Below, piece after piece: positions 7,097 through 50,600 of a stretch of 64,000 nucleotides of DNA. The position numbers were made by a program, and so were the translations under genes. Position 1 is the stretch's first letter, and each line of letters opens with the position of its first letter. This stretch comes from Pegea sp. RAD2-039 (Eukaryota; Chordata; Thaliacea; Salpida; Salpidae), in NCBI GenBank assembly GCA_034620365.1, contig JAQGEQ010000071.1, forward strand, positions 186,001 to 250,000, in the 5' to 3' direction. The notes beneath the pieces are model-generated. The model had not been told where the DNA came from. It made no database searches and saw nothing but the letters and a program-made list of their open reading frames with translations.

Positions 7097-7962
7097 ACTT
7101 TAGTAATTAATCAAACAGCTGAAAGTGATTCTCGTGAGGCTCGGTGTTTACATCAAGTAATTATGTCAGTACAAGATGATGAAGTTGTTCTGATGAAGAA
7201 TTCCAGTTCAGGTAACTTATGGGAAAGTGTGATGAAAGAGATTGAGAATCGAGCTCAGGGAGAACCTACTCTTCTTTCAAGGCCAGCATCTGTTATGGAA
7301 GACAATACTTTAAAACCAAATTTAGAAATTCGAAACTCTTCAGCACCAACTCCAAAGCGACCTCCTCGTAAAAAGCGCCTTGCCCCTCTTGCCCCTCAAA
7401 TGAACGTAGTGAAAGTAGAATCCCCAAAATCTGATGAGAATGTCCGCGAAGAGCTTGTACAGATCATCCGGACTGCTTTTCCATCTGGTCCTAATGACCA
7501 AGAGAGTGAATTGAAAAGTGGACAAGCTCCAAAGATAAAAAGCTTGAAAGATTCTCCGGTTGCAGCCAAAAAAGAAACAGCAAAAGATTCGTATGAAAAT
7601 AGTCGAATCATTGACAAGGAACTGAGTCTGAGCTGCCTCAGTGTAAATGACTTAGACTCTATCAGCTTATATACTGATTACTCTTTGGAGGATAGTGCGG
7701 ATGATCAGTTAGCGATTGAAACACGACGCACGTCAACTACTAGTCATCTCGGAACTTCAATCCGAAGAGCTGACTCCTCTGGAAACTCGGAAAAGAAGCA
7801 AATGAAGGTTCGGGGTAAATTCAAGTTGAAAGCAGTAGCAGGAAAGGAACGTATGGGGGCGCTGCTAGACGCGGCTACTAATAACGCGACAGGAAAATTC
7901 CGAAGAATCCGATCAATAAGAAGCAAGAATAGTCTAGGGGGAGCTCCTCCTACTTTGAAGAA
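7097..7962 (+). CDS. ARHGAP24-like: First coding exon of RhoGAP isoform A (long N terminus)
   Basis: An 866-nt exon follows the acceptor TTTCTTTAACAG and ends before GTGAGT in phase 2. Coding from ATG 7163 (A at -3) gives 266 residues. The frame is also open for 22 codons back to the acceptor, so an upstream coding exon is possible. The peptide is Ser/Lys-rich and low in hydrophobic residues. It holds a basic proline-rich segment (PKRPPRKKRLAPLAP) and an acidic stretch around SLYTDYSLEDSADD. No known domain was recognised. It joins the PH exon at 10991 through a split AAA codon. Confidence 0.8.
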
Positions 7963-10900
7963 GTGAGTAATGTTTTACTTATATATATAAATATTCCTTA
8001 AGATTTCAAACTAGTTCACATATTTTGTTTGTGTGTCTGACTGCTAATCGTCAGCTGGCATTTGGTAGCAACGTTTAATTAGTTTTGGGAATACAGAAAA
8101 CCTCAAATCTCAGAAAGCATCAAGAGATTTTTAAGATTTAGATTTGGAATTTTAAATTTGAGTTCATAAATAGTTACTTGTATTATAAAATCTTTGCATA
8201 GAAATTTAAATTTAAAAATTCAACTTTTAAAAATCACGTCAAAATCATTTAATAGCTAAATATGAAATGATTTAATTAATCAAATCTAGTTTAGATTTTA
8301 GTATCAGCTCAACTATTATACTCAAGGTTCCATCATCATCAACATCAACTTCAAAACTTTATATACATTAGCTTACGTATTTTTTGATTGATGCAATCGA
8401 AGTATTATAACTTAAATGAAAAACGATACAAAGAAACTAATTGTATTTAGGTTTTTCATATATTTAAAGAGCTATTACTTGAGGTAAAAACTTCAATTGA
8501 ATGACAATATTTTGAAATTTAGAAAAGAAACCTGTTTTGAATACTTTTTTAATTAAAGTTTAGCGTTATTTAGTATTGTATAAATTAAAATTATCTAAAA
8601 ATGCCTATAATTAATAGCTTGCTTTTTTTAGAACATTTTAAGCTTGATGAATGAGTTATAATTAAATTAAAAATAATAAATGTTCAAAGATTAAATTAAA
8701 CCTTTGTTGTAAACACAAACTGTCTTAAAATAAACTAAATTAAAAATCTTCTTTTAACAACAATTTCTCTCAAAACGTTTAATGTTCTTTGTAGTAATGC
8801 TTCAAAACTCATAGGGTCTGTAAGAATGTACTTATCATAATTGTGTTATCTAGTCATTTTTCTTGTGGTTTTGATATCAAGTGTAAACGTGGTTTTATAA
8901 AAATTTCTAAATCAATTTCCGAGTATAATTCCTTTACATTCGTATTTAACATGTTGGTAGTATTACCAAAGCAAGGTTTTAGAATTCTTAGCATGTCGTT
9001 TATAATTTGCTGAAAAATATTTTTTTTGAAAAAAAAACTATTTCTGAGTTATACAAATTATCTTTGAAAATGAGGCTGTAATGACATTTATAGTCTTAAA
9101 TAATAGTTTGATAGATCTTTGGTTCATGACATATTGCTGGTTAGTCATATAATTAAGACGTATATCTGAAACTGCTAACTTGTGTAACAAGTAAAGATTA
9201 ACTACGTTAATAAAACGATCATAAGTAGGATGACGTGACTTAAATCAACAATTATTTTATATTGAGTCTAATGAAGGTTTCTTCAATTAATTGAAGATAT
9301 TGCTTTGAAGAAATAGCTTATAAACCTAGTCTAATGAAGAATAGTTCATAAAGCAACATATGTTTTAGTACTTAGTGTTAGAAATTTATAAAACTAATTA
9401 TTTTGATCAGTTTAAGTTTAGAGAAATCTTGAAAGTTGTAATAAAAATATGCTTTTGAGAGATTTGTTGTTGATATTCGATAACAAACTAGTTTTTACAA
9501 TTTTAAATGATATCTATTTAAGAGAAGATGTTTAAAAAGAAGATTATAAACAACGGTTGATATTTGTAACTCATCAAGTTTGATTATTAATCATTAAACT
9601 GTTCATTTCAACAGTAATACACTTTCTAACGAAACATAAATAAACTTTCTTTTAATAAGAACATAAAGTAAATATTAAATACTTTGATATTAAATTATCT
9701 TTTTCAATTTTGAAACTGACAGTCGGTATGGTTATTAACTTCCGGATAATGAATCATACCTGTGTAAGCCACACATCTCAAATGTAAGCCTTTAATGAAT
9801 TTGGAATAATAATTCAAAAACACATTGCTTTAAATGAATAGTGAGTATCACACCTTAAGTTAAATTGATTTTCTTAAGTCTACTTGAGACTTCCTTTATT
9901 GTGGAGCTTATAATTATACAAGCTTAGTTTAAAAGTGTTTTAAAAGCTTTGCTGGTGTTAACTGGTTATTGCGTTTGTATCTATCGTTTATTTTTTGTAA
10001 AGATAGTTTTTACAAGTTTGCTGTGATACAAAGATTTATGAAGAGGTTTCTGTGTGAAAAAAGTTTAATAAAAATTGAGTTTAAAATACGTGCTACTACC
10101 ATAAAGACTTTTAATGTCTAGGTTAGCTGTTTTATTAATATCAAACAACTACTAATGTTACTTTAACGGATGTTTTCATTCTATTATTAAAACTTTAAAT
10201 CGCCAAATTCGTACACTGAAAGATTTTCTCGTTGGGCTATACAATTTTGCTTTAATATATATTATTGTACTTAAATCTTTTTTCTTAGTTACAGTTTTCC
10301 ATTCATCTTCGATGAATAGTTTACGAACTAATAATGGTTTGTCTAAATCATTTTCAGCGTTCTAATTGTTCCATATAGTTTGAAAAGTAAATAATTATTT
10401 CTGAAGATACAGATATAAGCAAGGCTATTCTGATAAACTTACTTTTATAATTTTCGATTAGTAAAAGCTCTTCAATTTCACCAGAGATTCCAGAAAAGCC
10501 TTGAAGAGCGCTTAATTAAGATATCTAAGTTTTTGTGATTCATTTAATTACTCATTATAAAAACTTTGAGAGTAATGATTCGAAAGTAATTACCAAGAAA
10601 CATACTTTGGTAGTAAATGTTGGTAGATTAAAATAATGATTGTTGTGAAGATATGACAAGCTCTAGGGGTACTGATATAAGTAAATCACCAATTAAACAG
10701 TTGTTAAAAAGTCCTTCGCTAAAAATGAAGGTGAAAAAGACTCTTAGCACAGCGATTAATTCTTTCAACAAGCTTCCTGATGTTACGAATCAGGAAAATA
10801 TTTTCAAACGAAATCCTGCTTCTAAACATTCTAAGTCACCGAAATTTTTGAGGAACAAAACAATCTTAAGTAGGTAAGATGCATAAGTGATCAGGATTTC

Positions 10901-13900
10901 AAACAAAAGTTTACCAAAGTAGAAAGATAAGAGAGATACATTTTAATTATTATTTAATATTAAGATAACAAAAAATTTAATTATCTTTAGAGGACTTATC
11001 GGAAACTCACATATAGACGACTTCTCAATTACCAGTGCTTTGCAAAAGGGAAGACGAAGTATAAAAGACTTAGGGTCTTCTGGAAGTAATGAGATTATTG
11101 ATCCTAATGATGAGAAACATGTTGTGGTTAGAAAAGGAAATCTTAAGAAGCAAGGAGGAAAATATAAGAATTGGAACTTGCGGTGGTTTGTTTTAAGACT
11201 GGATGGCCTTCATTACTTTTACAAAGAAAATGGAAAATATATTGTGAGTAATTTTCAATAATCTTTTAAAATAGTTTTGAAATCAATTTTCAAGAAGAAA
11301 ATGATTTTTAAATATAACCTCAATTTTAAAGTCTGTATGCAAAGTTGTACAAGTGCAGAAAAATGTTCTAAAAATCCTCATTATTTCATTGTTATTTATT
11401 TTATCAGGAAAAAATTCATTTTTCTATTAATGTTTAAACGTAACAAAATCTTTATTAAAACATGGAGTTTCCTTTTTTTACATTTGCAAAGAAAATATTT
11501 AGTTAAATCAAATTGAAAATTATGAGATGTATGATTCTACTTTAGATAAAGTATTTTTAGGAATATAGTTTTCTCGGTAAGTACATAAATATATTTCTTT
11601 GACTGATAATTTTTTCCACCAAAAAAGTACTTATTTTCTGTGGAGATCACGGAGAAAAGTTAGAAAAACGCTTTTATAAAATGTTCATAATTAACAGAAG
11701 CTTTGAAAATTAAGTTAATTACAGATTTTTACATAACTTAATAAAACATAAGAAGTTAGTTTAAAACACAAATCATTTGAACTTCAAATATTACCTAATT
11801 TGTATAAATCTAAAAGTTTGTACCTAAAATAAATTCAAAGTATGTTTTTATCTTTTCCTATTATTATCTTATCTAAATTTATCTGAAACTGTATAAGCTA
11901 GTTTACAAGTTTTATATATTTGTTAATCTTAAGATTTAGAGTTAATTGTCAAAATAACAACTATTTTTTAAAAAATTTACTATTTTTATAAAATTCTTTT
12001 CGTTAAAATGTTTGATGATATGAAATTGTTCACAAAAATATTTTACTCAAAAATTGTAACCTTGTTGTGAATTTAATGTAATCTAGTGACAGATTTTGCG
12101 TTGAGTACAATTTATAAGCTTTCATCTTGTAAACCTTTAACAAGGTCTTCACAAGTTTTGAAAGTTGTTCTCTTTGTTTTGGTAGTATTTTATCCAAATT
12201 TTTAAAGATAAAGCAAAAATAAATAGAATAATCGATCTCCAATGTCAAAACCACATACAACAGAAGCTCATTTAAAATACTGATATCAGTTTCCGGGTGA
12301 TAGAATATCATTGAAGCATTAATACAGAATTAAGAACTTATATTTTACATTAAAAGAATTTCTTTACTTCAATCTTTAAACATAATTTGATGAGACTATT
12401 TCAACAAACTGAATTTATTGAGAATGAAAATAGGGTAATAATTAAACAAAAAAGTAATAGAAAATGGTTAATAAATCACGTGTGAAAATGGTATTATAAA
12501 ACAACATCAAAATATAGGTTTTTTAGATTTGGTAACACGATTTAATAACCTCACCGCTACATGGTGCTATAGATGTTTTGTAATCATTTTTTATTCAAGT
12601 ACTTTCAATTTTGATTTATCTTTCATTTTATAGTTACACCAAGTTTAACCGCACACTTTCATCTTTTACTGGCCCTATCTACAGTTCTTCTTTTAAGTTG
12701 CTTTTCAATAACAAATCTTCAATAGACAATCTTCTATCACTATGTCAATAAATGAAACAAATAGTTTATTATAAGTTATTTTTCTTTAAATTTCAGGCAA
12801 CTATACCACTAAGTGGTAATCATGTCAAAAAACTTGGGAGTTCTCCACATGAAACTCAACAGAAACATTTTCTTTTCGAAATCTATCCAGGTGACGACTA
12901 GTTATTCTGCAAATACAACCTTAATTTGTTTAGCTGGTTTTGTATGTACAGTGTAAATAACTTTATGTCAGATATGATTTCAAAAAGCAAGCAAAGTAGA
13001 CAGCTAAAGTGAAGAAGTTGGAATACTAGGAAAGATAAGTTCAAATATCTAAACAATTTTCTTTCTGGTATTTATGACAAAAATGAACTGATTTAACTCA
13101 CGTGCAAACTGAAAAAACCATATTTTACATCAAATTTGTTTTACTGATATAAAAATTAAACCTTAGTTATCTTTATAAATTAAAGCTTAGTGGTTATTCT
13201 TTCTTAATCCTAGCCATGTTGGTGGTCACCAATAGAGTCGTGAAAGACACAATGGATCTTAATTTTGGGTGGCGCCGTGCTTTGTTCTGTTAAAAAACGT
13301 TAAAATGTTTATTGCGAGTGGCTATAGCAGAGTTAAACCATGCATATAGAAATAATCTTACACAAATTATTTGTCAATTGCTTATTTGAACTGTAATGAC
13401 ACAAAAAACAGTATCAATATACTTTTGACGATTTTGAATATTTCAAGCAGTTATGGTAAAATTATTTGCTTTTTACTTCCAAACAAGGTTAGCTGAAAAT
13501 TAAGACCACAATTTTTACCACAGAGCTTTACAGTTTGTATTTCGCAATTTAATCTCAACCAAGGCTGGATAAATGTCACTTTTAAAGACTTTTGATTTAT
13601 TGTTATACTTAAATTGCTTGTACTTAAATCCTAAAATCGTATAAGTAGATGAATTATATATCCCTAAGGAGAGATTATAATATTGAGTAATGTTAAATCG
13701 TGACTTTTTAGTAAATAATTTTACTTCTTTAATTCAACGTATCAAAATTTCTGAAGAACTAAGCTTTGATTGCAGCTTATTTTGCTTTGATAAACAAATG
13801 ATTTTTATTAAGGATATAGTGTACATTAGGATGCAAATTTATCTTAAAATCTTATCTTAATTAATTTTTATTTCGTTTTCTCAGTGGTTTACCTAAATAA

Positions 13901-16900
13901 ATTTGCTCATTGATGATGTGAGCGAAAGAGATGTTGATGAAGAGACAAATATGTTATTTATAACAATTCAATCAACATAGAATCATTTTTTTAGCCACAT
14001 TTTTAGTCTTAAAAATGAATGAGATTAAATATTAAATTTATTATAAACGCTAATCTTAATGAGTATTCTATCACAGGTGTTCACTAACAATAAAAAGTAG
14101 AATGTGTTAAACTTGCTTTCATTTTCACAACAGCTAAGCTACATTTTCTGCTTGTATAGATTATTAAGAGATTTCATACGGCAGCAGACGGAAGCCACAG
14201 TGCAAATAAAGCTTATAAAAAACACCTGCTGTACCAAGCAGACGCGTTTAAACCAAGAAACCGACACCTCTGACCTTGAAATTACGACATCTTTGTCGTT
14301 TAGCTTGCAAATGCATTTTTGTCAACTAGTAAATATTAACTTTGTGTCTATTGTTTAATTACTATTTGGAATTTCAGAATATATCTTTTAAACTCTATCT
14401 TCGTGAGTGCTTTGCATAAAAGAAAGATATTCACAGATATATTCATTACTGAAGAATCAAATTGCAAGGCGTTTGAAGTATTTGGAGAAAGCAAAATTAA
14501 CTATTTTATTTGTAAGAATAGATTTAATTTGTCAGATTTAAATATTTAACAAAAGTTTTTAGGTTTTTATTATGTTTGATTAAAATTTCTCTATAAAAAC
14601 TTAAACAAACTCACTTGTCTTTGATTGAAGCAGTTTTTTACATTTAAAGGAAGTTTATTTTATCTAGAAATTTTGCGAGCAGAAGATAATAAAAAATAGA
14701 ATTGAGAATCGTGAAAACCAAGATATTTTTTCTATAATCAATAAACAGACAATGCTTAGGTGTTTAAAGCTGAAATACGAATTGAGTTTCTTTGAAACAC
14801 TTCATTTAGTGTCAATATAATTTGCCAACCTAATCCAATAACAGTAGCTACAATGAGCTCTTTTACTTTAATAAATCTTTTGATTAAGAACATTGAACTG
14901 TGTTTCAATAAATATTCATTATTTTGAAAGTCATGTTCTGTAAGGAATATTAAGTGTAGAGAGAAAACATTTTTTTCTTCATCAACTAATTTGATTTTTG
15001 TGAGAGTATATTTTCAATAGAATTTAGAAATTTGTTACAGTCGATATATTTTATGCAAAGGTTAACAGTCCTTAAGAAACAAATCAAGTTTTTGTCTGAT
15101 AGTATTTATGTTATGGTCATAACTATTACCATTCTTACAAATTAAAAAAGTTCAGATTGTTCACGATATGACCTTAAAATTATTTGAATAATTTAAACTT
15201 AATGATTGAAAACTTGTGGTCACAGTCCTATTTAGAAATGTTTTAATCACATGTTACCATAATTTATATGTAAAAACAATTGTTAGACTCCCGTCTAACT
15301 TATTTTGTTTTTTCTAACAAATGTTTAAAAACGCTGTAAACTTTTTGAGAGCTGTAAGCCTTTCGCTTAAATCGTCACATGAAAGAATAGACTTAACGAT
15401 AAAACAAACATATCAATGTTTACTATCTATTCAGAGATCTATAGAACTGGAAAAAGTCTCTGCTTATTGTCTTTTACTTCAATAAATTTTTTCGGAGACG
15501 TTCTTGAAGAATTAAACCTGAGTTTATAAGCAGCGAATTAAAACATTTACATTTTTCATATTGGTCTTAAAGTTTTTGACAAATATATTTTCCACCTATT
15601 TCAAATAAGAACTTTATTTCAGCTGAATTTCTTCTTAAGTCAAATTTTTCTTTAGCTTTCTAATTGCTCTCAAAGTTAATCTAGTGTTCATAAAACATTT
15701 TTGTAGGTAAGTAGTATTTTTGCAAAAGCTACAAATAGTAATGAGACTCAATTGGATTTTAAATAAATATTCTTCGTTATTGAATATAATCTATTAAAGA
15801 TTTATAAACTGAAAAATGTTAAAATACTTTAATAACTACTATTTATACCGATTGAAAAATAAAGACGAAGAATTTTTTAATAATTCTTAAAATTTTAATC
15901 TTTTAAGACTGTTATTTAACAAGAACATGCAAAAAAAAAACATTTCTATCGATAAAATCAACTGAATTTTATTAAATATAAAGATCTTTTTCAGGATTAT
16001 AAGATTATATAAAGTTATACTTTGGAGGCATGTAATTACAGCTTAAAGACTTTGTGGTACGTTGCTATTAAACATTAAATAAGTCCTTAGCATCTTTGAC
16101 CACCAAGAGTAAAGCTTGTTTATGTTGGTTAAAGAGGTTTTATGAGTCAAGGTGTTAATTTGATCTTTCAAATATTTTTTATTGTGGTACGGACCTCAGT
16201 AAAACATTAGCCGGAGATTGTTGAGAAGATAACTACAAAAGTTAAAAAGATACTATTTCTTGCAACAGCAAAAAGAACATTAGAAAATGATTTGACCAAA
16301 TTTGTTTTTTCTATAAGATTAAAGGTTAAGCAGGCAACAAATTAGGTCCTACCTTGGCATTTTTGAAACATTAAATTGATTTTGTCAAACGTATGTAATA
16401 ACAGAACAACAAATATATGTTAGAAAACTAGATCAAAATATGTGGATGTCTTTTTATTGAAATAATTTAGTTAAATTTGATATCATATATTCTTAAATAT
16501 TGTACGATAAAATTATTTAAACTATCACAAGCTTTAAATAGCTCTTTTCTTACTAAAATTGTTGGAAATTTTTGAAGAAATATAAACTCTTCTATACTAA
16601 GAAATAAACCTTGATTGATCGCTGTTACTGTACAAAACTAACATGATTTAGTCATAGCTAATCATTTGTATAATCAACTTTACATCTTTGAAATAAAATA
16701 AAAGTGAAGAAATTTCAAACCATTTAGTTGCTATCACTTCTACCTTGATCTGAAAATAATAATAAAGAGATAGATAAGTAAAAGTAGCAACAGCACGTAC
16801 ATGATGACTATTGTATAAACGGCCAATTTTAAACAAAACTCGATTTTTGTAAAAAGTTTAACGACACGTCACACAGTAAGCACATTTATTTATAGAAGAT

Positions 16901-19900
16901 TAGCTTTTATATTTATTCTTTCAGAGTACAAAGCATAGATACTTGCATAGAAAATTATATAATCAAACCATCACTTTGTGAAGTATATAAAACATTTATT
17001 TGCACAATATCATAGAATGAGGTTTCAAGAGTGCTTCTAAAAGAGTTTGTTACTCAAGTTGAATAAACATCTTTTATGTTTTCTTTTTTTAATAAATTTT
17101 GGGTTAAATGAATTATGTCTATAGTATTTAGATAAAATATATTTTTAATTGTTTTAACTTAAATCATTATATTCTGCACAAAACTATGAAATACAAAAAA
17201 ATAATTTATGCTAAAAGTTGATTTTTGAATGACGAATTCAATAACAACCTTTCATTTGTTACACACTTCTGTAGAAATTAACTTATGTTTCCTCTTTAAA
17301 ATTTAAGTTTTTATCATCTATCATTTAATAATTTACGATCATTTTTGTTCAAACAAACATTTGATTCATTATGAATCTAAGTTTGTGCTTTCTCAAATAT
17401 TTGGAAAAAGAACTTGTGATACTAAAAGAACTCAACCACTTTTATCCTTTTAGGTTCTTTGTGTCTGTAAGCTAAATAAGTTTGATAGATTTTGTTGGCA
17501 ATCGTTAACATAAGTTTAAATAAGTTTGTGTTTAATAATAAAGCTATTGTATAGTATTAAATGATTTAGCTTGTTCTATATTTATACAAGACACAACATA
17601 AGTTTAGTTTTTTATCATCTTTTTCTTTTCAATGATTTTTAACCAAAATGAAAAGTATGTTATACAAGTTACCAGTAGTTCTTTTCAATACAGATAACAT
17701 CGAATATAAATATAGTGACAAATGTTTATTTTAAGATCAAAACTAGTACAGTATGATAACATTTGTAGATAAATATTAATAAATATTCTCTCTTTTTTCT
17801 TGATAAAATCAAACAAGTGAGAAAAGTTTTGTAATATTGACATAAGCTTTATGTCCTTATAAGCACAAATTTAGCTAATTGTGGCCAAAAGATGTCAGTC
17901 AATTTATAAACTGCCGAAAATTGTGTACATACTTGGGTCCTTAACCTCTTGAAATGTTTTCTGTACAACTTCAGAGACCACAAATTTTTAATTCCAATCT
18001 TTAAACTAGTTACAGTGAATCGCATTACATGTGTTTCTGATCTTTTGTTCCTTGGTGGTTTATCAGATTAATTAGCTTGATTAAATTTCTAACAAATTAC
18101 ATGAAGACACAGTTATGTAAAATATTTCAAATCATTAAAACTTTTTTTTTACAAATAACTTTATTTAAAAACGTCGCATTTACCTCTACAAATATTTAAT
18201 TTAAACATATTTAGGTTTCAAGAAATATAAGAGAAAGCCTTATTGTAACTTAAACAGATAATTACAGCTGTTAGTGCTGTTATAATACAAGGCTAATAAC
18301 AATACATCACACTTAATTGAGTTTTTTTTTCAAAAACTTGTAATAAAACAGCTTATTTTTTAAGGATACTCTGAAAATTTCATTTCAGAAATAACTTGAG
18401 ACAGCTGTAAAAATACTTCATTTTTTGTTACTTGAGTAAATCTCTACATTCAATATTTAACTGATAAATTTTGGAGAAAAGTCAGAATGTGTCTGATGCT
18501 TTCATTTCATCAGCCTGATAAAAGTAAATGAAACTTCTTATCCATTCAATCTTTGATACCACCATACCACCAAGGCAACAAAACGCCGACATAGACAAGC
18601 AGAAGCGTAAAAACTTTTTTTCTTTTTTTCTTCATACTCGCTTAGGGGGTGGTACACGGAATCATTTGCGATTAGTAAGGCTTCAGTCAAGAACTGAACA
18701 AACAATAAAGTATTTTTGATTCTCTCTTTTCACTTGGCAGATGAAACGATGAAGAAACGACTTGTTGAATGATGATGTTTTGAGAGTACTGACTGCTTAG
18801 CTTACCTGTTTTTAGTATGTGTTTATCAGTATTTAGCTATCAATAGATAGACTAATTCTATAAAAAACATAGAAATATATATTTCAAAATATGAGTTTGT
18901 AGTTCTTTTTTGGCAGTAGAAAGCTTATTTAAAGTATTTTAGCGTAGACAAAAGGTGATGTTGAAAGTTAAATTCAAAATGATGCTATACCGAAATATTT
19001 TATATCTAGTAAAAATGATTTTTGACAACAACATTTTATAAAAATAGTTGCACAAATATTACACAATCGAACAGTCAAAATTATTTTCCGACGCATTCTA
19101 ATGTTTACATTTTATATATATTCTGCAAAATATCAATTGTCCTTAGTCAAATGCATTAGTTTCTGTATTACAATTTATCTTCATCAGTCAACATAAATCA
19201 GTTTTTTATATATCCTTAATAAATAAAATGTTAAATAGAAAACTTATAAGTATGCAAAGAATTTATATTTGCTCAACAAACTGAGGGATTTTGGTATCAT
19301 AGTTATACAAGCTTGTGTATTAATTGATAGTTAACAATTTACAGATAATCGCTCACTAAAAGGCTTAATCTATAATCCTTTTTATGATAAAAATTAGTTA
19401 TCTGCTTCAGTTGATAGTTATTTATTAGAATAATTAATTGACTTTTAAAATACCCTATTTTGATTTATTTAGGTTTATTTTATAGATATAATATATTACA
19501 AATTTGTTTGAAATAAAAAAGATTTTTTAAATTATCTATATAAAATTGTTATGAAAATAACGTTTAAGTTTGTGAGTCTTTTAAATTTAACCATTTCAAC
19601 TTTTAATACTTAAATAACATAAGAAATAAAGTTAACTGAAAATATTTCACAAGAAAATGTTGTTGTTAAAAAAGAAAACCAAGTAATTAAAGATTGCAAT
19701 TAGAAAAAAAAATTATAATTGAAAAAAACCTCTTGTATGTAGAAAATAGATGATATTTTTTTTGGTTTTTACTAAACAACAACACATAATTCAAAATATT
19801 TTATTGAACTTTAAAATAGCGTGGTTTATACTATAGCTGAAAAGCCATAAATATCAACCGTAAATTACATTTAAGATTAAAGTGGAAAAATTCTTGAAAT

Positions 19901-22900
19901 GAAGTATAATTGTAATGATGTAAAGTTGAAGAGATTGTTTTGTTTAAATACACTTAATTATTACTGATGTTATTTCAATATTCACATAAGTGATGTTATA
20001 TAAAATATTTTTTTAATTTTCTAAAAGTACAAATAAATAAGAGCTTATTGTCAAATATTTTAAGATTCATTATATGAACTATTTTTATCAAGTAACTTTA
20101 TCATTTTCAGTGTATTTTAACTTTCGTAAATTGAGTTTCACATCGTATCTATTAAATCAAAATAACTTGTTCAAAATAATTTAAGATTTAGGTTGAATTT
20201 TAACTCTAATTTTTCTAGACTAATTTTCTGCAAGTATTTTATGACGGGTAGCTTGCATATTTAATTAGGTTTAGTGATTTTAAAGGTTCTTAAATTAAAA
20301 AAAGTCAGAGTATTTTGTAATGACTTTTCTAGCTTATTGACTTTTTAAATTTATTTATGTAAAATGGATTTATTGAAAACAGTTATCATCGTTAGATTTT
20401 ATCCAACAAACTTTGAAGATTTGAGTTATATTTCTTTCTCTTTTTTTGTTAACATAAGTAGCTTAGTGGTTACTAAAATAGATGACACTTTAAAATTTCT
20501 ATTGCTGTGATAAATCAAAATTTTTGTTGTGGGTTACTTTACTGTTCAAATTATACTTATATCGCTGTCTAAGCTAACATTTGCAACACAAATTCTTTAA
20601 ATATATTTTACTACATTTACAAAGAAAAAGTTTATGCAAATTTTCAAATTAATTATCTACTTTACAAAGGAAATTATTTTCAAATATCCTTTAAAAGTGT
20701 TGCTTAAAAAGTAAAGAGAAATTTGGAAAATTGAGGAACTAACTCCTACTTAATTTCATAATAAGTTTTAAATTCATTTTCTATTGTTTGTATTAAGGTG
20801 AAAGATTAGCTATTAAAGTGTATAATACTTTAGTTCAAAGTAAATAAAATAGCTTAGGGTTGTATTTGAGTTTGAAAATAAGCTCATAATAAATTCTTTA
20901 TAGAAGTTGTAAACATTAAAGACATGTGTTAACTATCAAATAAAATATCTCGAAATTAATTAACTAGATGATATTTACCTAAACCTAAATTTATAACCAA
21001 AAGATATTTTAACTAAACATTGATCAAATAAAAACTACTGTTTTTTTCAGCAGTTTAGTATGCTGTTCAAATCAATTAAAACATTTACTTACCAAAAGTC
21101 TAGCAAAAAAACTTGGTAAAATTCGATGCTATACTTTGCTTACTCATGCGTATAGTAATGAACCGAGCAATGAACGCAAACGACACTTAAATCCTTTTTT
21201 CTTACCTTTTCCTTTCTCGTTTAATAAGGAGATTTCATGTTAGTCTAGTCTGATGTATATAACGTGGTTAATAAATTCAGTGATAAAGTTTTCTAGTTGA
21301 ATATTTCCTTACTAACAAGCTTAAACATTTTGTATATGAATATTGAAAGCTTTTTTAGAACTTATGTCAGTTATTAAGCTACATTTTTGAATTTCAGCCA
21401 AGCCTGATGGTTCAGTTTCTTAAGTTGAATAAAGTTTGCTGAGTTTTATTATAATTATGAAAAGTTTGAAAAAAAATTATTCTTTTTTGAGTAAAAATAT
21501 GTTTGAAAGATACTTGCGATTGAGATATTTGAACTAAAGCGTTTCTTTCTTGCTTTTTTTAGACATTTCTGACTGTAAATGTTTTAAATAAAGGCAGCTT
21601 CACTATACACAATGTTTTGAAACTTAATGCTGTAGGTCGAAGTTTGCTTGTTATTTCGTTGCATAGGCAGATCTTCAAATGATGGGAGGGGAAAATAGTA
21701 AACTTTGTAGTTGCAAATACTGTCATAAATCACTATCCGAGCGATCAAAGAAACATAAGGTACACCAACGACGTGACAATTCAGCTTTAGCTCGGCTTAC
21801 TCAAGATTTATCGCAAGATCGGGCTCGTGGTAACATTAGTCGCTGTAATTCCACCGCAACAAGTAACTACATCACATCTGTATCACCTCGTTTAGTAACA
21901 CCAAATAAGCGGGACAATCAGCGTGTGGATGAAATCATCGAAAGTAAGCATTTGAAAAAGGGTCAAAGCTTCGAACAAGATAATCAAACAGAGTGTATGA
22001 AAAGTGGTAGTCCTTCTACTACAGTTTCTGTTGCATCAGTAAATTGGTCAAAGCTACGTCGGGGTAATCCACCGCCCTTTCCAACTGAAGAGGTTCTAGC
22101 ACTTCTTCCAAATAAAAACGTATACGAGGAAAGTGGATTGAATCTGCAAAGTAGTCCACAGAAGACAGATCACTTAGTTAAAAGCCTTTCTTCGATTCAT
22201 TCTCAAAGTATTAGTTCTAACCTTTCTTCATCTAATTGTTGTTTATCAAAATTGTTTGGAATCTGTTACAAAAGTTCAAGAAAACAAGATAATAAGGCTG
22301 AATGCAAAAAAAGTAAGTAGAAAAAGGTTAACATATTTTTTTTCTCATATGCGAAAGAGTTTACTAATTACTTTTTTTAAGTACCTTAGGATGCTTGTTT
22401 GTTTTTGGAGAATACTAGAACTACTTTGTAATTGTGTTTTTTAGTAACTTGAAAACAAAATCTTTGCTTTGAATCTGGCTCGTATGAAGAGTTATTTTTG
22501 TTATAGCTGATGATTTTCTTTTGTGTACATAGATTAAACAAAATTCTTTATTTAGTGGTTTCAGTCTTTATTATATAAAGCTTGGATTGAAGTGAAAACG
22601 TTCTGAATTTATTCTTTTTCTTATAAATTTCAGTATTTAAAACGACAATAATGTTTTTCCCTTGAGTGAGGTTTAATATATTTGTTGTATTGGAAGTAGA
22701 AACTCCTAATCATAAGAGTTTTTATACTTTGAATTCATGAATGTTCGTGAATTTAATTAAACTTTAATTGTCTTTTTAACATTGTTCTAAAAATCAACTG
22801 CTCAAACTAAGCACTTGATTGTATAATCCCAGAAAATGTTCATGTTTGCAACTTATCAACGAATAGTTTTACTACTCACGTTCACACATAGATTGTTTTT

Positions 22901-25900
22901 AAGAGATTTTGATAATATTTATTGCTTAATTCTCCTAAGGGTAGCTGTTAGTTGTTTTCTACCTGCAATTAAAGTGGTTGATATTTTCTCCTTAATTGTG
23001 CAAGTTGAAATAGCAAGTAAAGTTAGCAGAACAATATTGTTTAGTTGAGATAAACTTGCTTAGATGATAAACTTTAGTTTTTTCAGTTTTATTGCTAACG
23101 TACAAAGTCACTCTTAAACCAAAATTATTTTGTTGATTCTGAGAAGTAATGAAAAAAAAACTTATCTAACTGGCTTGAGTATAATTTCCTGATAGACTCT
23201 TATGTACACCTTAAATAAGCTTTAAGAAAGCCACGGTTTTTTTAAGGGACATATTAGCTCAAGGGTGCTCTACTTTAACCGGCGTTCTGTGTACTTTGAA
23301 TGGATTAAATATTGAGATGAGAGGAATGTAAACATTTGAAATGGATTAGTAGACGGGTTTAAGTCAAGCGGGGAAATTATCGGAACTAAGAAAGGTCATT
23401 TGATACTGTTTCAAATCCAACATAAGAACAATCAGATTGCAAAAGTATTTTAAATTCCTTAATGAATGAGCCTCTATAAAATTAGTTTCAATACTTCCAC
23501 TTCTAAATGATTTTTTTTTCTTTGAATTGTGAGTTAATTGCAACAACAGTTTTTTTTATGCTTTTACAAGCTGTTTGTCAAGCTATGATAATTTATTTGT
23601 AGTATATCTACTTTTTCAAACATTAAAAAATCATTCAAGTTTAATTGATTTAAATTGATTTCAAACAATTCAATGCTATTGGTAGAATAAATGTAGACTG
23701 CAGAGTATTTTATTGTATAAAAATTTGTTTTAAAGCTTTTTTTAACATTTTGAAAACGAACTTTGTCACTTTCAATTTGTTTTGCGCAGTATATAAACTG
23801 TCTAGTCACTTTGATATGATTAATAGTATAATCCTAAATAACATCTTTTATTTGTATATTTTAAAGTTTAGCTTTACTAAAGAGCTTTCAGAATATTTAT
23901 TCGTTTTGATCAAGTGAGCTTGAATAATCAATTGAATAATCAAGTTTTATGTTTAGGTTTCGACAAATAATTACTAATTTTAAAAACGTTTGACTCACCT
24001 GTTTGAGTTTAGGTATGATAAAATGATATAAATGATTTTTTAAATTTGAGACCTAATTCCGCGTGATTTGTTAGATTGAAGCTTGATCTTAATCTTTCTG
24101 TAACGCGTATATCTCACACGACTATTTATAACATCAAAATTATAATAAACATTTTGAATAATTTTCTAAAATTGTTCAAAAGTCTGCCTAGAATAGATTT
24201 TTACTTTCTGTTTATACGATAAAATCAAGTATCCTTTTATTTGACAAATATTATTAACAAGGTTAGCTATCAAAGCTTTTCATTGTTTTCATAAAAATCT
24301 CACAAACATAATCCATTGAATGACTCACTATTGAATTAAAGCTTGATAAATCACTAGACTTATACGGAGAACACTTTTTTAACTTAGCAGCGCCTTAAGG
24401 ATTCATATCCACTGGTAAAAATCTCACTAATTGTTTTTCTTTCAAAGTTTTATTTATGAAAAAGTTGCTTATAATTTCCCAAAAGTCAACTCAGTAATTA
24501 TCTAAAAAGCTGTATCTTCCCAAGTAACTACATTTATAAAAATAACATCTACTAGTTAGATTTTTATTTTGTGAAAAGAGTCTTTATTTTAGGTTGTTTA
24601 TTGTCAGTATTCTGAATCTGATTTTTATCTAAAGCCAACAAAAAATTATGTTTATTTTGACTACATATAGCAGAAAGTAAAGAGTTTTCAAGGGACTTCC
24701 TTGTACCATGAAACATGTTTTAAAAGAAAACGTGATATTCAATTTAATCACAGAAAGCAAAACTGCTGTTTTTACTACACAAGATTATCGAAGACTCGCT
24801 CCGTGACTTTAAATAGGAAACGATATACAATAACTGGAGAATTTTATGCATACTGACAACTTAATTACTAAAAGGCTAAATTATATTGATTGAAAGTTGT
24901 GCAGCCAAAGGTAAATATCGTAGATGAATGTACTTCATCGTTAAGATGAGGGAGTATACGAAAAACAGCAAACAGTCTGCGCTATCAAATTCTTGATATT
25001 TTAGATGTTGAGTTTGTGTTACTACTGTTAAGCTCTTCAGAAATTCTGCACAAAGTACAGCTGTATTTACAGAAAGTAAACGAGAAAACTAAAATTGTTT
25101 AACCGCTGTTTGACTGAAACTACTTCTTCAAAATACTAACAAAATAGCTTTGTAGCTGTTGAGTGTTTGTTCTGCTTTATATGTGAAGTCTATGACCGTT
25201 TGTAATAATGAGCAGTTAAATAGTAACTAGCAGTATTGACATATCTAATTGAGAGAATGTGTATTTTCTACAAGTAACTTTTATTGCATTTGAAAATAAC
25301 AGACTGGAAAAGTTGGTCATCTAACGTTATTATCACTTAAATTGATATTGGGTTTGATAAAATTTTAAGCGTGAATCTAGCATTGAAAGTAATTTTGTTC
25401 GATGAAACTTGATAGCATGTTCTACAAATCTAAAAAAATGTTTGATTGTATTTGATTAGGCAGCTATAAGTTAATGTAAATGTTTATTGAGTGTTCTTTC
25501 TTTTTCAACACAAACAATGAAAAGAGCTCTTAGAAGATTGGATAGTAGAAAGAAAACACAAGGTTAGTTGTGCTGCCGATCTTATAACACAGTTTTACTC
25601 ATTCATAAGATTACGGTCATCGACTCATTCTTATAAGTAAAATAAACTTCGATTAGTATGTTTTTTATCTTCACGCTTTTTCATTTAGTAATCTGTTTAC
25701 TGCTGTTTAATTCATGAAAAACTATATTTAAAATTCAAAAAAAAAAACTAATGGAGTGTAGAAAGCTGTAAAACAAAAACGAGTCTAAATTGGAGTTTTT
25801 GTGTTTTAATGAGCTTGATGCTTCACAGTCAAAGCACGAAAAATGAAGTAGCTGTAATTACTTGAACTTTATCATGTATTATGAACAGATTTCAATATAC

Positions 25901-28900
25901 TACCTTCATTAATTTTTGAAAAGTTCAAATGGTTGTTTGTTTCATTTTATAGTTAAATGTGACAAATTGTTTGAACTTTTCAATTTCTATAAGCTTACAG
26001 GCCTGTATCAATACTTACTAGGCTTAACCTGAAAGCTTAACAACTCAGTAAGAACTACTGTCGCCGATGTAGCTACTACTTAGTTAATCACTTATGAACA
26101 ATTTAGTGGTTTACGCTGCAGATACTAGAACACATAAGCATCACCAGGCATAAATCGATTCAACTGAAATTGATTTAATCACAAATGAATGTTTAAATTA
26201 TATTAGATTTAGAATAAGTTATGGTAATAAAAGAAATTGTATACAAAGCAAATTTTAACATTTGGAAAGTTACCACAAATGCCTTACAGCTACAAAGAGC
26301 TGACTGCAATTATATTGTAAAATTGATCAAATCTAGTTTTAGTTTCATACTTTTGTTATACGGATATCAACTCAATTCTTTTTTTTAAAGATTTTTTTTG
26401 AATATTTTTGTAAATATTAACAATAAACTTCTCAAGTCTTCAGCTGAAATATTTTAGAAAATTTAACTTAATTAACGTGTTAATTTACTTATGAATTACT
26501 GTCGTGTGAAAATTTTTATAATTAAGATCAAATAATCATTTGAAATTATACGTAAAAACGCTACACTACATGAACCATAATTTCTTATAATGGTTTTAAT
26601 GATCTTTAAAACAAATATCAATCTATAATTTGGTAACAATAAAAAACGTGATTGTTTAAGCTTATAACTTACTAAGAGTTAATCTGTTAGACTTATTTAG
26701 ATACAAGCTTTGGACTTTTTTCTAACAATTTTAAATTTATAAATTTATACTTTATTTGAAAAATGTTTGATTTAAAATTTCTTTTAGATCAAGCTAACAT
26801 ACATATTTAAGGGTGTGATATCATACAAAGAGCTGTCAAACCTAAACAGTGATACACTATAATTGTAGTCAAGCTTTGATTAAACTTTAATCCATAAATG
26901 AGAAATTCAAGCACACTAAGAACCACGCAAACTAGTATCCAAACAAGCTTAATAATTGATGAAGCTGTAAAGCTGCTACGACAGTAATAAAATAGACAAG
27001 GAGAACAGAAATAGAAAACTGCTAAGCTCTCTAATTTCAAACGAGAGATTAATCTTAAAGTTATGTTTAAAAGAAGTCTTGCAGGTGTGTATTAGACGAA
27101 GTTTAAGAATACTTCTCGTGTATATGTGTGTATCAGTGCATATAGGCATATAGAAAAACGTTTTTTACCGAGACCTTGCTTTGTTTGACTCTCCGTCCTT
27201 ACCTAGGTAAAAACAAGGAACGAATGACAGTCAACCATGAGTCATACCTGTTGTCAACTAACGATCACGAAGATATGGAAGAATGGGTACAAGCTATACA
27301 CCGCATCATCTTATCACCATTTGGTGGAGGTAAAACTTTCAAATCGGTCTGCTCATCAAAATCGTTCTTATTTAGTTTTTCTTTCGTGTTTACCTCACCT
27401 GCAAATGCAAAACTATTTTCAGCTAATTCAGATCAGGTTTCACTTTTGCCAACTTCTTGGACTCTGCTAAACTTAACTTTAAGTTTTTTATCATCGCAGT
27501 TTCATTTAGGCGGTTGTTATTGCTTAGTCTATATAGTGAAGAGCCTTGCACATATTTTAAAGAGTTACAACTTGATGATTGATGTATTGATGCATCTTAG
27601 GAATCCTTTCAACACTTGGATTATTTCTGGGATTATTTAACTAATGAATTTAAACTCATCACTTGTGACTTTTTTCAATTTTTTGAGCACGTTACATATC
27701 CTGTGATCTCTGGTTTTATACTCAAATCTTAAATGAAAAAATAATTAATTTCAACAAATTTGCTACATTAAGTTGTTTTACGAGTCAAGTTATTTTATTT
27801 TTAAATCTATGTCATTCTCAAAAAAGAAGATTTTTGTAAATTTTTGATTAACTATTAATGGGCGTTTCTTTATTTTGAAACTTTTAGTTTTTATTTGTTA
27901 TTGATGTTGTGTGCCACATTTAGCAGCTGTCTAATTTGAACAGCCGATCTGGTATGTCTGTTCAAGAATTGAACGAATTTGTAATCCCTTTAATGAAATC
28001 ATCTTTTCATTTTCAGCCAGTTGTTTTTTTGTAAATTTTTAAAATCGAATTTTTATTAGTTTTACATCTTTCATTACCATTAAACAAAAGATTATTTCTA
28101 CTGAGTAGTTTTTACAGTTTAGAAATTAACCTAATTTGTTTTTTAACAATTTAGACATTTGATAAAATTATTGTTTTTTGCCCTTGTTCAATAAACAGAT
28201 TGGATTTTGTCATTCAAAAGTTCTTTTAAAAGCTTTGTTGTATTGAATCATACCCTTTTAAATTTTTCATAAATTTGAAAAAATCATTAAATCTTTTGAT
28301 AAATTTCTAACTATCATACAATTTTCAACAAAACTAAACATAAGCAATATTTTAAATTATCTTTGAAAAATAATTCTTGATTAAATAAAGTTTATCATTA
28401 CTCAGTAAATTTATCATTTTTCTAACCCAACTCCTTTTATACTACATAGGAATATTTGGTCAAAAGCTGGAAGAAACGTTAAGATATGATAAAAGATTGG
28501 AAGAGAGAAGTACAAACACACCTAGCTCGAGACAAGTACCAATTATTGTTGATAATTGCGCAAACTTTATTCGTGAAAATAATGGATTAGAAGAAGAAGG
28601 ACTTTTTCGTTTATCTGGTAACGTTATTGAAGTTGAAGCATTACAAGAAGCATATGATCGAGGAGACCGCCCTACCTTCGCAAAGTAAGAGTTATTTTGC
28701 TGTAATTCTAGTCCTATCAAAAGTAAGCTTATAGCTTTAAGTTGAAATAATTCTGAAGCTTTTGCTGAGCTTAAGTTGAGTGCTGGCTCTACCTCAGCTT
28801 ATATATCGCGTATTAATCATTATTTTTCTCACTGGAATAATTGGGTTTTATGCAATTATCTACTTCCCACCAAGCAGTTAGTTTCACGGATTTTACTTTT

Positions 28901-31900
28901 AAACGCAAAAGTTTGCCTTTAAGCACCTAATAATAAGTTTTAGTCGTATGATTTAGAATGGTCGTATTTGAAAATAGTATTAAAGAAGAAAATACTATTT
29001 CAGTCATTATTTGATAAAAATATTTTAAACTTTGTTTTATAAATGTTTGTGTCTTCTACGGGAAATTAGTTGCATGAAAGATGTTGGCCAAATTATTTTC
29101 TTAAGTTAACTAAACCTTAAGAGTAACGTGTCTTAAGTCTTTGTCAATTGATGTTTGCGTACTCATAAGCTGCTTGCTTATAATCAGGTAGCAAAAGAAA
29201 CATAAAAAACTGCGGTTAACAGCAACTCTACAAATTTTTCTGATATTTTGTGATATTCTTATCAGGTTATTACTGATAATATTATTAGTTTAAAGCGCAA
29301 GCGGTTATGTCATTAGAATAAAAGCCAACTTGTTTGTTTTGTAGTCAACTTAATTTACTCTCTGAGTTCTCAAGTGAATACGATTACCTTTAAAAAAGTT
29401 CTCATAGAAATTTGTAAGGTCTTACCTTAATGAAAATAAATTATGAAGGTTTATCTGGTTTTTCAATCTTTTAAATTCAGCAAAATCTCTATGTTATGTA
29501 TCATAAAAGAGGATTATAACCGACCAAACTTGAATCAATCTGTTTCTAAGTTAAGGGGAAAAAGGAGGGTTATTTTCCATCAGTTGTTTATTTATGGTTT
29601 TTGAAATTTGAAATAACGTTTTTTCTGTCTACTAGTAAACCATCTCTAAAAGAAAGTAAAAGTTTTGATTTTGTCTGAAACTGTGACCATAATTCCTTGA
29701 GTAGACATTTGCTTATTCTATAAACTAATTTATCAGGTTAGTATTTAATGGCTCATTAGACTTAAGTACACACCCTACACAAGACTTGGTATCATACAAT
29801 CTAAAAAACAAAATAAATTTAATCTAGATATAGTCAACTTTTATAGCTCTATAAGCTTGATGATATTTTTACAGTGGAACTGATGTGCATACGGTTGCAT
29901 CTCTATTCAAGAAATATTTGAGAGAACTACCTGAACCAGTGATTCCATTCAGTCAATATGATGCTCTTATCGATGCTGCCAAATTTGCTGTAACAGGGAA
30001 TGAAACAAACAATCAAAACGGGAACACTGAATATAATGAGAAGATTTTGCTTAAAATCATGAACCAACTAAAACTTCTGCCAATTGCACATTATAATCTT
30101 TTGAAGTAAGTATATAATTAGCTTTTATAAAAAATTGTTAAGTTTATAAGATTAAAATACGTGCAGACTTTTTTATGTAAGTCGTGACTAAAGTAATATA
30201 ATTAGTTTGCATCAATTTGTATAAAAAAAATTTTGTAGCTTAGTGTTTTCAACTTTTGTATCTTTCTCAAAAATATATCTACATTCGAAAAAAATATTTG
30301 AAAGGAAAATGAACATTAAATGCGGCAACCTTTTATTAGCTACTCAAAATATATTTTATCAAAAATTGAAAATCAAACAAATATCTACTTTGATAAAACG
30401 ATATAAAAGTTGAAAGAATATCTGCTGCTTGAGGTGTTCAACTGTCTGAAGTAGATTTTACAAAAATCATGATTGTTGTGATAACTAGAAATAACATTAT
30501 ATATATTGCAGCATGTTAAAAATCATTGTGTAATTAGTGACAATGCAGAGTATTTTAATTATCGTTGCTTGAGTTTAAAATGAATGGAATGTGAAGAGCT
30601 ACACGGATAACTGAATTACTTTTATGAAGTACTATATAAGTCCTAAATCAGTTGAAAGTGTAGAGTGCTGCAATTAAAAAATATCATTTCAAAAGCTCAG
30701 ATACTAACTAAAAGATAAAGAATTTCTATTTTGAGCTTAATGAGCATATGACGCTTGTTTTTTTCTGAGAATTCGATAATTTCATTTGTAAGATCTTTAA
30801 AATTGATTTAATCATTTTTAGGTATCTCGTTCGTTTTCTCGACGAAGTTCAAATGTCGTCAAAGTTTAATAAGATGGATACTTCTAATCTTTCTTCAGTT
30901 ATTGGACCCAACTGTATTCGCACCAAAGAAAATTGTGGAAACCAAATGATAGATGACAACAGTCATGTTCAATTTTTGATGTCACAATTTGTGTCAAATC
31001 ACAAGTAGGGATTTGTTTCATTGTATTGATGAGTCATTATTCTTCACCTGCAAATAATTACTCTGCTCTTCCATCAACATTAAGTAGTCAATTACAAATA
31101 ACTTAGAATATTTTCTGATTAGTATAAGTCCTTACTTTTATATAAACAAGCAACTTTAGTTTGTTTTTTGATACTAAGAATACTTATTACCTGTTACCTA
31201 CCCACATCTTGCCATCTTCTTGAATAAGTTTTAAAAACATTTTCTTTTATTAGTTATGTCTCTTAAGTATTCTTCGAATGTTTTTTATTTATTTATTGGA
31301 AAATGAAATTTGTTTGCATCTAAAAGATCATTTAAAAAACCATTTTTAATCTAAGCTCGCAAATTATTCATGAGACAAATTTTAGATAAATTAAATTTCA
31401 ATCAGAAATTCTTATTTTCAATAAAATAAAAGATTTTTAAATAAAAATGAATTTGGATTTTGCAGATTTTTCTTCCCAGAAGAACCTCTTCCAGACGTTG
31501 CTGCCGGTACTAATTTACATGGCTCCACAGTTATAACCCAAAGTCCATCTGTCAACACTCATGACCCAGGAATCGGTACCTTAGACAGCATAATATCGCC
31601 TCAAAGCACAGTAAGCTATCCCCCATTACAACGACATCCTCAAGCTGGTGAAGACAGCGGAACAGGCTCTTTAGGACCAACACCAGATAACACATATCGA
31701 CCGCACCCTACTTCTCATAGCATAACATCTGGCTCAACCACATCTGGTAAATTACGACCAGTTAAGCCACCGAGACGAAAGCTTGCTGGTGACAGTGAAT
31801 CTGATGGACGTAGATCAACATATGATAACATCAAGCAGTCAGGTAAAACCACCGAAGCTGATAATTTCAGTGATACTAGGTCAGTTTCATCCTACTCAAC

Positions 31901-47699: not shown

Positions 47700-50600
47700 A
47701 TGGGTGTCAAGCACTTATGGAGCATCTTAGATTCAATTAAAGAAGAAGTTGAAGTTTTAAATAATGTTGAAATCAATAAAAGATTGGCAGTAGATCTAGC
47801 TGGGTGGATATGTGAAGGTGAAAGTGTGAAACTGATGGAAAATACTGTTGTTAATCCATATTTACGGTTTGTTTCTTACTTAACTAACTTCTTTTTGATT
47901 AATTTATGATTTTATCTTTTTTATAAATCAGTTGAGTTATTTTTAAGCCAAACAAGTTTTTGACATCTATAAGTTGTTTTATAACCAAAAAACTAATTAT
48001 GAAACTTAATTATGAAATATTCTAAAAGATGTATTTAATTAGTTTATGTATTTTATTTTTGATGAATATAAAAAGTAGAACTGCTCATATAAGATTATGT
48101 CATTTTTAAATAGATTGTTGAATTATTAAATGTTTGTATAATTTTGATAATATATTTTTTAAAGCAAAGTCTTGTTATGAAGCTGAACTAAATGTACTTA
48201 ATTATGTGGTTTAATCTTGATGTAATGTTTTAATATACTCAACACTATGAGCATCAGTTTCTTGAATAGTCTAATGTTTATATTTAATAGAAGTTACTTT
48301 AATAACCAGGCTAGCAATAACTAGAATTAATATCACTTAATTAATTGGCCTAAAGTTAATTTATCTATTTATATTCTCTTCACTGATCTATAACATCTAA
48401 AAACCTCTAAAAAATCATTTATGATCTATGATTCATGATATAAGATGAATCATTTATGATATGATGTAAGTTTAACTTTAAACAATTTTCTCTTTAACTG
48501 ATGTTTGAAATTAAGTTTAAGAATTTCTTAAACTAACTATTATTTTAAACTTTTTTTAAACTACATATAACTACATTATTTATTCTAATGATGATCTTGT
48601 GATTATTTTTACTGCGCATTTGAAGATAGATAATTGGTAATATCATTTTATTTGACAGGAATTTGTTTTTTCGTATCAAAGTGTTGATGAAACAAGGCAT
48701 TGAGTTGATATTTGTGTTAGATGGTCAGATCCCAGATATAAAAATTAAAACTGTAGTGAAGCGCTTGGGCGGGTAAGCTTATCAAAATTACTAAGTGATC
48801 TTCACTTTCATTTATATAATCTTTTATTTGTTGAATTTAATGTTTATCATTTATTGGTGATTTTATTGGCTGTTTGTATGTAGTTTGTAAGAGAGATATT
48901 TTTACAAGTTCTCTAAACTGTTTTTCCATATTTTCTCTGCTTTTTAGATTGTGTAGAAAATAGTAAACATAAAATGAAAATTTCATAAACAAAAAAAAAG
49001 CTATCAAATTTGTTTCCAGAGATTTCAACTTTGTAGATGAACAACTGAAGTCTTATTAGTTGTATTATGTAAAGACCACAGCTAATGAATCCTATAATAA
49101 TCATGTTTTACTGCTAATAAAAGTTTACTAAAAGTTTTTAAAACTTTTCTATCTACTAAAGACCTGAAATGAAATTTTATTTTATAGCTGTTAGATTGCA
49201 AAGAGTTAAAATATTTTCATTTTGTTTTTGCTAATTAATATAAAATTATGCATATATTCCATCAATATATGTTTTAAATGATTTTAGGAATGAAAGAAAA
49301 AATACAAACTTACAAAGAAGACAGTTGAATTCAAAGTTCATAAAAGTAAATTGATTTTTAATTTATTAAATTAAGTCGGTTGTTGTCGAATGTTTAGTTG
49401 CATGTGTCTCATAGATATCATTTTTGATAATTTGTGTCTTCAAAAACGAGACTATAAATATTTAGAGAAGCATAAGCATCTGAAATCTTTATTTGAAATT
49501 TAGATTTATGAGTGTTTAAGAATCAATCTTTTATGAATTTTTAGTATACAAAACAATTAAACCATAAATTCTTGTAATAGTGCAGCAAACTTTTTGATCA
49601 CTTGAATATACCTTGGGTAAAAGCAAGTGGTGAAGCTGAAGCTATTTGTGCAGCTTTAAATCAATTCAATGTAGTTGATGCCTGTATCACTAATGACAGC
49701 GATATTTTTTTATACGGAGCTAAGACTGTTTACAAAAACTTCAAAGCGTCCCAAAAGGTAATTTTTATCTGTATTATAGTGATGTTCTTTGTTGTAGTCA
49801 ATGCACGAAGTTTTTGGTTGTAGATTGCAAGAATTAAAACAGGAAAATTGAAATGTTTCAAGTTATACAAGCGTAATTAGTCAAATAAAATCTCATTTGA
49901 AATCATTTAAGATTTTTAAAAAGTTTTTTACGAAATTAATTTTTCAAACAGAAAGTTACATACACATCGTATAGTATGAAACATGTAGAAGAATTTCTTG
50001 GAATGAATAGAGACTCTCTGATTGCTCTGGGACTTTTACTCGGATGCGATTATGATGAACATGGTATCAGTGGAATCGGAAAAGTTTGTTTTGTTGTCAG
50101 TTCGAAATTATTTAATAATTTTTCCCTCAGATTCAAGGTGTGAAGTTGATTGAAAGTTGGAAAGGTTGCAACGCGTTGGATAAGATGAAGAGTTGGAAAT
50201 GTCAAAAAAGCAAGTTGTGAAATTTGTTTAAAAAAATGGAACAATAATGTTACAAAATATTTGCAAATAATAAAAGTTTTTGTTGAATATTTAATCAATT
50301 TTCTACTAAAGGTTCAATTGATTCTACAAGCAGTAAGTTGGAAGAGAAAATACGAAATTTGGCGATGAAGGTTGTAATTTTACATAAATCTTATTTATTT
50401 TATAAAATTCTTTTTATATTTTTCAACTTAATTGTTTAAAGGTTGATGGGTTTCCTGATGCTGCTCTAATCAATGAATTTCAAAGAAGTCGTCGTGACTT
50501 TGTGGAAGATTTTAAACAAACAGATGCAAACTTTGAACTTATGCGCTGACGATGTTTGGAAAGTTGTATCATTTCTAGTGAACAATTTAAGTTGGGTTGA

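Follow-up and report, generated by a model that had tools for sequence, protein, structure and literature searches.

A candidate alternative first coding exon with a predicted N-myristoylation signal in a FilGAP-like RhoGAP gene of the salp Pegea

The closest described systems are short isoforms of the human FilGAP family, for which we draw on portions of the papers cited. FilGAP isoform 3, which comprises residues 96–748, lacks Arg39 and for this reason is considered not to bind PIP3. The isoform 2-specific primer starts with ATG, an indication that this isoform has its own coding first exon (PMC10709582). The FilGAP variants v2 and v3, which do not have the PH domain, were RT-PCR-positive in all tissues of that study (PMC4472203). 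The preliminary description of the present locus had stated that human ARHGAP24 has isoforms without the PH domain, and these two papers agree with it. Similarly, the short isoform of ARHGAP22, named p68RacGAP, is a RhoGAP without PH domain that was reported to bind Vezf1 and to be nuclear together with it (PMC4059726). The exchange of membrane-targeting N termini is known from the KChIPs, where different N-terminal variants are cytosolic, myristoylated, palmitoylated or transmembrane (PMC3973911).

The locus compared here lies in a window of 64,000 nucleotides, the whole stretch of Pegea sp. DNA that was analysed, which contains a gene for a PH-RhoGAP protein and, inside one of its introns, an open exon named X. 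The predicted product starting in this exon (X form) is like the FilGAP/ARHGAP24 short isoforms (isoform 3; p73RhoGAP/RC-GAP72) in that the PH domain is partly or wholly gone and the RhoGAP domain is kept (PMC10709582, PMC4472203), but isoform 3, as expressed in PMC10709582, starts in shared sequence, whereas the X form would have a stretch of about 210 residues of its own, beginning with a myristoylation-type sequence. The p68RacGAP belongs to the same family and has no PH domain; it is reported to be nuclear with Vezf1, and a lipid anchor is not described in the covered portion of PMC4059726. The KChIPs resemble what is proposed for the X form in exchanging acylated and non-acylated N termini, although they are a calcium-sensor family and not GAPs, and no PH domain is exchanged in them (PMC3973911). 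The covered portions of PMC10709582 and PMC4472203 make no mention of acylation of the human FilGAP short isoforms, no acylated RhoGAP isoform is announced in the titles and abstract openings of the papers found on RhoGAP and myristoylation, and in the covered passages of FilGAP papers containing “myristoyl” the word applies to other proteins. PH-truncated short forms are thus already known in this family, and what is unusual in the Pegea gene is the myristoylation-type N terminus.

The host gene and the exon nested in its PH-splitting intron

When A2 and the exons E1–E6 were joined, the product gave a PH domain at residues 119–224 (62.7 bits) directly preceding a RhoGAP domain at 261–421 (140.7 bits) with Pfam profiles, as in the FilGAP family. 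The best solved match of the PH part was 1v89 of KIAA0053 (E 3.9e-14), with pleckstrin-2 behind at 2e-8. Because this closest PH domain is that of KIAA0053, which we take to be ARHGAP25, the gene was filed under the FilGAP family (ARHGAP22/24/25). The sequence EEGLFRLSGN is read in E4, and the arginine of its GLFR is presumably the catalytic arginine finger of the GAP. The C-terminal piece at 31470–32234 had no Pfam match at E 0.01, and a search of the genome with the PH-RhoGAP sequence at E up to 0.01 returned only four exons of this gene itself. At the 5′ side, exon A1 has a strong acceptor at 7096, ahead of its first ATG, which would extend the exon to 7097–7962. Both A1 and A2 share the acceptor at 10990, so that, counting exon X, the gene may encode three or more alternative N termini. 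The coordinates are given in Table 1.

Table 1. Exons, splice signals and N-terminal features of the FilGAP-like gene (positions in the window).
Feature	Position	Strand	Remark
Exon A1, upstream 5′ exon	7163..7962	+	from first ATG; phase-2 donor; open frame extends 5′ of ATG
Exon A2, second upstream 5′ exon	10653..10873	+	phase-2 donor; joins E1
Exon E1, linker and first PH strands	10991..11243	+	
Exon E2, PH middle strands (b4–b6, our numbering)	12797..12890	+	donor phase 1
PH-splitting intron, between last two PH strands	12891..27206	+	14,316 bp
Strong possible acceptor (TAG)	21541..21562	+	score 7.08
Possible acceptor (TAG)	21645..21666	+	score 4.78; phase 0, frame fits donor 11243, not 12890
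Weaker possible acceptor (CAG)	21649..21670	+	score 0.63; exon 21671–22312 (642 nt) would be an in-frame cassette
First ATG of X	21679..21681	+	C at −3 and A at +4 (weak context); a start here would not place Gly at residue 2
Candidate alternative coding exon X	21682..22312	+	second ATG (strong context) to donor; 210 codons + 1 nt, phase 1
Predicted N-myristoylation signal and three cysteines (MGGENSKLCSCKYCH)	21682..21726	+	
Second cysteine cluster near exon end, basic	22237..22311	+	Cys 186, 187, 195, 208
Splice donor of X, GTAAGT	22313..22318	+	score 9.08
Exon E3, last PH strand and C-terminal helix	27207..27329	+	123 nt, phase 1 at both ends
Exon E4, RhoGAP start with GLFR arginine	28450..28684	+	starts phase 1
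Exon E5, RhoGAP domain	29875..30105	+	
Exon E6, RhoGAP domain	30822..31003	+	3′ boundary approximate

The PH domain is divided by an intron of 14,316 bp, which falls between the strands aligned with FVFEI and SYVLM of KIAA0053 (b6 and b7 in our numbering); E2 ends in ...FLFEIYP-G, and E3 starts with KNKERMTVNHESYLL. The four other introns between E1 and E6 are far shorter (about 0.7 to 1.6 kb), and those solved by script in other genes measured about 49 to 529 bp, being short by selection as they came from neighbouring matches. Exon X was found inside the PH-splitting intron, as had been described, in an open frame of 217 codons (21667–22317). In the same intron, the region 23125–23499 has a G+C content of up to 0.34 without a long open frame and is possibly a further, non-coding exon or a regulatory stretch.

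The coding character of exon X was evaluated against 200 simulated introns of equal length and dinucleotide content read in six frames, where the longest stop-free run was 180 codons and the mean of the maxima was 96. The codon log-ratio of exon X was +0.217 per codon, while 350 intron windows gave a mean of −0.379 (sd 0.092, maximum −0.118) and the nine exon pieces of the FilGAP-like gene, when left out, ranged from −0.078 to +0.391. Synonymous codon use alone separated poorly (exons −0.08 to +0.043; intron mean −0.069, maximum 0.004), and frame +2 of exon X was nearly as coding-like, at 0.183 with its 26 stops ignored. The exon is single-copy in the genome, the next match having an E value of 0.15, which speaks against a repeat or retrocopy; direct repeats of at least 30 nt were not found in the intron, and with the PH-RhoGAP query matching only itself, an origin from a paralogue was rejected as well. 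A copy of the other 5′ exons was also rejected, as no similarity to A1 or A2 was detected (best E 1.8 and 36). Two matches to solved structures (PDB) were obtained, neither convincing (best E 0.19), and a search with short patterns matched 41 stretches in prokaryote genomes and nine in viral contigs, collections unsuited to animal genes, none of which encodes a relative of X. The observation as a whole, comprising the exon, its frame, the donor and the ATGs, was confirmed, and as a rough estimate for this step exon X is almost certainly a real coding sequence.

Other features were noted in the window. On the + strand, 49581–51496 holds a gene with an XPG I-region (XPG_I at 49581–49820, E 4.6e-18). 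On the − strand, 51917–54709 contains open frames with repeated PGPGxY motifs, of which one scanned piece had no Pfam match at E 0.01 and which we take to resemble sperm-tail PG-rich repeat proteins. Further on the − strand, 59229–63445 contains GPCR-like open frames, prostanoid-receptor-like by eye; the piece 61605–61901 matched Srx (E 1.1e-4) and 7tm_1 (E 2.1e-4), both below curated cut-offs, and the piece 59913–60152 had no Pfam match. In the genome, the loci L012 (C1:6130341–6133370) and L011 are divergent ribosomal DNA copies, and that of L012, which is near the end of the window's own contig, begins in mid-18S beside a short tandem repeat and stops within 28S.

Start codon and predicted lipid anchor

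Two ATGs are present in adjacent codons of the X frame, at 21679 and 21682. The context of the second had been described as optimal, and it was found to be strong, with A at −3 and G at +4 as against C and A for the first. The protein from the second ATG reads MGGENSKLCSCKYCHKSLSERSKKHKVHQRRD; it begins with MGGENSKLCSCKYC and has cysteines at positions 9, 11 and 14, and residues 1–35 of the X product carry a net charge of +6. The earlier claim that Gly2 and Ser6 fit the N-myristoyltransferase rule and that three cysteines follow within 15 residues held for a start at 21682, where the sequence matched a PROSITE-style N-myristoylation pattern. A start at 21679 gave no match, and Met-Met-Gly at the start of a protein blocks N-myristoylation.

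The rarity of this N terminus was estimated with tests that were chosen post hoc, the motif having already been seen. On the two strands of the window, 432 ATGs have 20 or more open codons behind them; six of these ATGs have Gly at position 2 and one, the second ATG of X, has the N-myristoylation pattern. When the residues of X were permuted, the pattern appeared in 948 of 100,000 permutations, the pattern with three cysteines within the first 15 residues in 14 of 100,000, and both together with a charge of residues 1–35 as high as that of X in 1 of 100,000. A gene for the N-myristoyltransferase is present in the genome, as NMT_C gave three matches at one place, the best with 71.5 bits (C44:417829–418143). 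In Src-type SH4 domains and in MARCKS (for the latter PMC7930189, in the portion covered), myristate together with cysteines and/or basic residues holds the protein on membranes. The likeness of X to both is one of motif alone, and homology was neither found nor is it claimed. The prediction of a lipid anchor is specific and well formed, and as a rough estimate for this step the balance tips slightly towards a myristoylated X protein.

The strongest of the other explanations, which we nevertheless consider unlikely, is that X is an alternative first exon of a non-acylated protein, with translation starting at 21679 and giving a cytosolic, PH-truncated short form like the human ones, the cysteines having a different role, for example in binding metal or contacting proteins. 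The ATG at 21679 indeed comes first in the RNA, 3 nt upstream of the second, and human short forms are mentioned without a lipid anchor in the covered portions of PMC10709582, PMC4472203 and PMC4059726. This explanation has, however, to prefer the weak context to the strong one and to leave the rare combination of pattern and cysteines to chance. Metal binding is also opposed by the Pfam search, in which exon X matched no family at E up to 10, zinc finger included, and a zinc finger in the CKYCHKSLSERSKKHKVH stretch, which is finger-like by eye, was rejected on this result.

Splice sites of exon X and its place in the transcript

Candidate acceptors were scored with a matrix of 19 sites of the same genome, six from this gene and 13 from other RhoGAP/PH genes. 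For the latter, 16 introns were attempted and 14 had a candidate, of which L017 was dropped for its low score; at the locus L018 the second of two tied choices was taken, and L026 and L028 were left out of the matrices. The 19 known acceptors, each left out in turn, scored from −3.4 to 9.1, so that the scores discriminate weakly; both splice-site matrices are built from few sites. An in-frame stop at 21664 lies 5′ of the start codons of X and, like the start motif, fits an exon with its own 5′ end, and acceptor-like AGs at 21562, 21666 and 21670 would allow splicing from upstream. The TAG at 21562 could be used by a non-coding leader only, because in-frame stops come after it. The score of the TAG at 21666 was reached by 70 of the 784 intronic AGs, its own site included. 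Three two-codon upstream frames in 21563–21678 would matter only if the RNA starts 5′ of them. The better-scoring AGs would fit a non-coding or trans-spliced leader ahead of the start codon, and the splice-site scores lean against X as an internal exon. A search for a rotifer spliced-leader sequence, allowing up to 1 mismatch, gave no match. Exon X is most likely first in coding terms; our rough estimate for this step is that a first coding exon is quite probable.

The alternative of a cassette, which the preliminary description had not raised and in which X (21671–22312) is inserted between 12890 and 27207 and adds 214 residues within a loop of a PH domain that is otherwise complete, is improbable. 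It would have phase 1 at both ends and a frame open throughout the insertion, and its CAG acceptor scores higher than four of the 19 known acceptors when these are left out. The CAG is, however, the lowest of the three candidates, 320 of the 784 intronic AGs score as high, and it stands 4 nt 3′ of the better-scoring TAG, the use of which breaks the frame with E2. Where several AGs and two upstream donors are available, we estimate that chance would often produce some in-frame combination. The rare start motif would be a coincidence in the cassette reading.

At the 3′ side of X, the donor AAA/GTAAGT was scored with a matrix of 20 sites (seven from the FilGAP-like gene itself, 13 from the other RhoGAP/PH genes), and its score was reached by 6 of the 731 intronic GTs, its own site included. 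The preliminary description had argued that X ends in the one phase that lets it join E3; the join to 27207 is in frame as claimed, but the phase is not exclusive, as E4 starts in the same phase and its join is also in frame. The PH match, which has 62.7 bits and spans the full profile in the long form, was reduced in the X-E3 product to 22.6 bits over profile positions 62–104, below the cut-off of 25.1, and the remnant consists of the last strand and the helix; the RhoGAP domain stayed whole (140.9 bits). Most of the PH domain would thus be swapped out on joining 27207, as had been proposed. Of that earlier interpretation, the coding exon, the strong donor, the PH truncation at 27207 and the rare myristoylation-type start stood, and the single-phase argument did not. 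We take residue 96 of human FilGAP to be the Met equivalent to ERMTVNHESYLL in the Pegea gene. The PH remnants agree in length, with 35 residues (96–130) in FilGAP isoform 3 and 36 in the X-E3 form, which makes a PH-truncated short form of this sort a known kind, as far as the covered portion of the isoform 3 paper goes.

A join of X to 28450, with the same N terminus and a RhoGAP domain without any PH remnant, is distinctly improbable. E3, with 123 nt and the same phase at both ends, could be skipped, and the left-out acceptor scores were alike (5.5 for 27206 and 6.3 for 28449), so that nearness alone favours E3; in addition, human FilGAP isoform 3 keeps a PH remnant (PMC10709582, in the portion covered). 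As rough estimates for these steps, exon X very probably belongs to the FilGAP-like gene, and its joining to E3 is probable. It is very improbable that X is instead a gene by itself, nested in the intron and ending with the TAG at 22318: its frame does close 6 nt past the donor and poly(A)-like signals lie downstream, but composition leads one to expect 4.45 such hexamers per kb, a donor of such rare quality stands at the end of the frame, and no homologue was found for X in Pfam, convincingly in PDB or elsewhere in the genome, as given above. Replacement of E2 by X (11243 to 21667 and 22312 to 27207), for which the phases fit with the TAG acceptor, is extremely improbable, as it requires skipping of E2, gives a broken PH domain without evident use behind the upstream N terminus and leaves the start motif unexplained.

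Proposed product and its meaning for the family

Exon X is best read as an alternative first coding exon whose use truncates the PH domain, which would parallel the human isoforms. In the proposed mechanism, the RNA would start, or a non-coding leader would be spliced in, within the PH-splitting intron, and the FilGAP-like gene would have an alternative transcript in which X comes first among the coding exons, is spliced to 27207 and is translated from the second ATG. The product would keep only the last PH strand and the helix, so losing phosphoinositide recognition, along with the whole RhoGAP domain, behind about 210 new N-terminal residues without a recognised domain. With Gly2 myristoylated, the nearby cysteines and basic residues would hold this product on membranes, where the GAP would act without PIP3, and membrane attachment of the X form would be constitutive. 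We infer the transcription, the start codon, the lipidation, the localisation and the effect on Rac, and the full reading of X as a first exon joined to 27207 and encoding an acylated, PIP3-independent RhoGAP is offered tentatively, its overall probability falling somewhat short of even.

A wider possibility, which is doubtful, is that the choice of first exon selects between two forms of the protein: one with the PH domain, which awaits a phosphoinositide or Arf signal, and one that is SH4-like and dually acylated and whose PH domain no longer works. If this were true, the acylated form would keep Rac GAP activity on membranes at all times, and it would depend on promoter choice whether the inactivation of Rac is conditional or constitutive. 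Exon choice would then be a means to test the PIP3-dependence of a Rac GAP. It would also offer one route by which a short, PH-truncated protein of the FilGAP type reaches the membrane, in an animal gene that, through the use of another first exon, gives up a domain for regulated membrane binding in return for a permanent lipid anchor.
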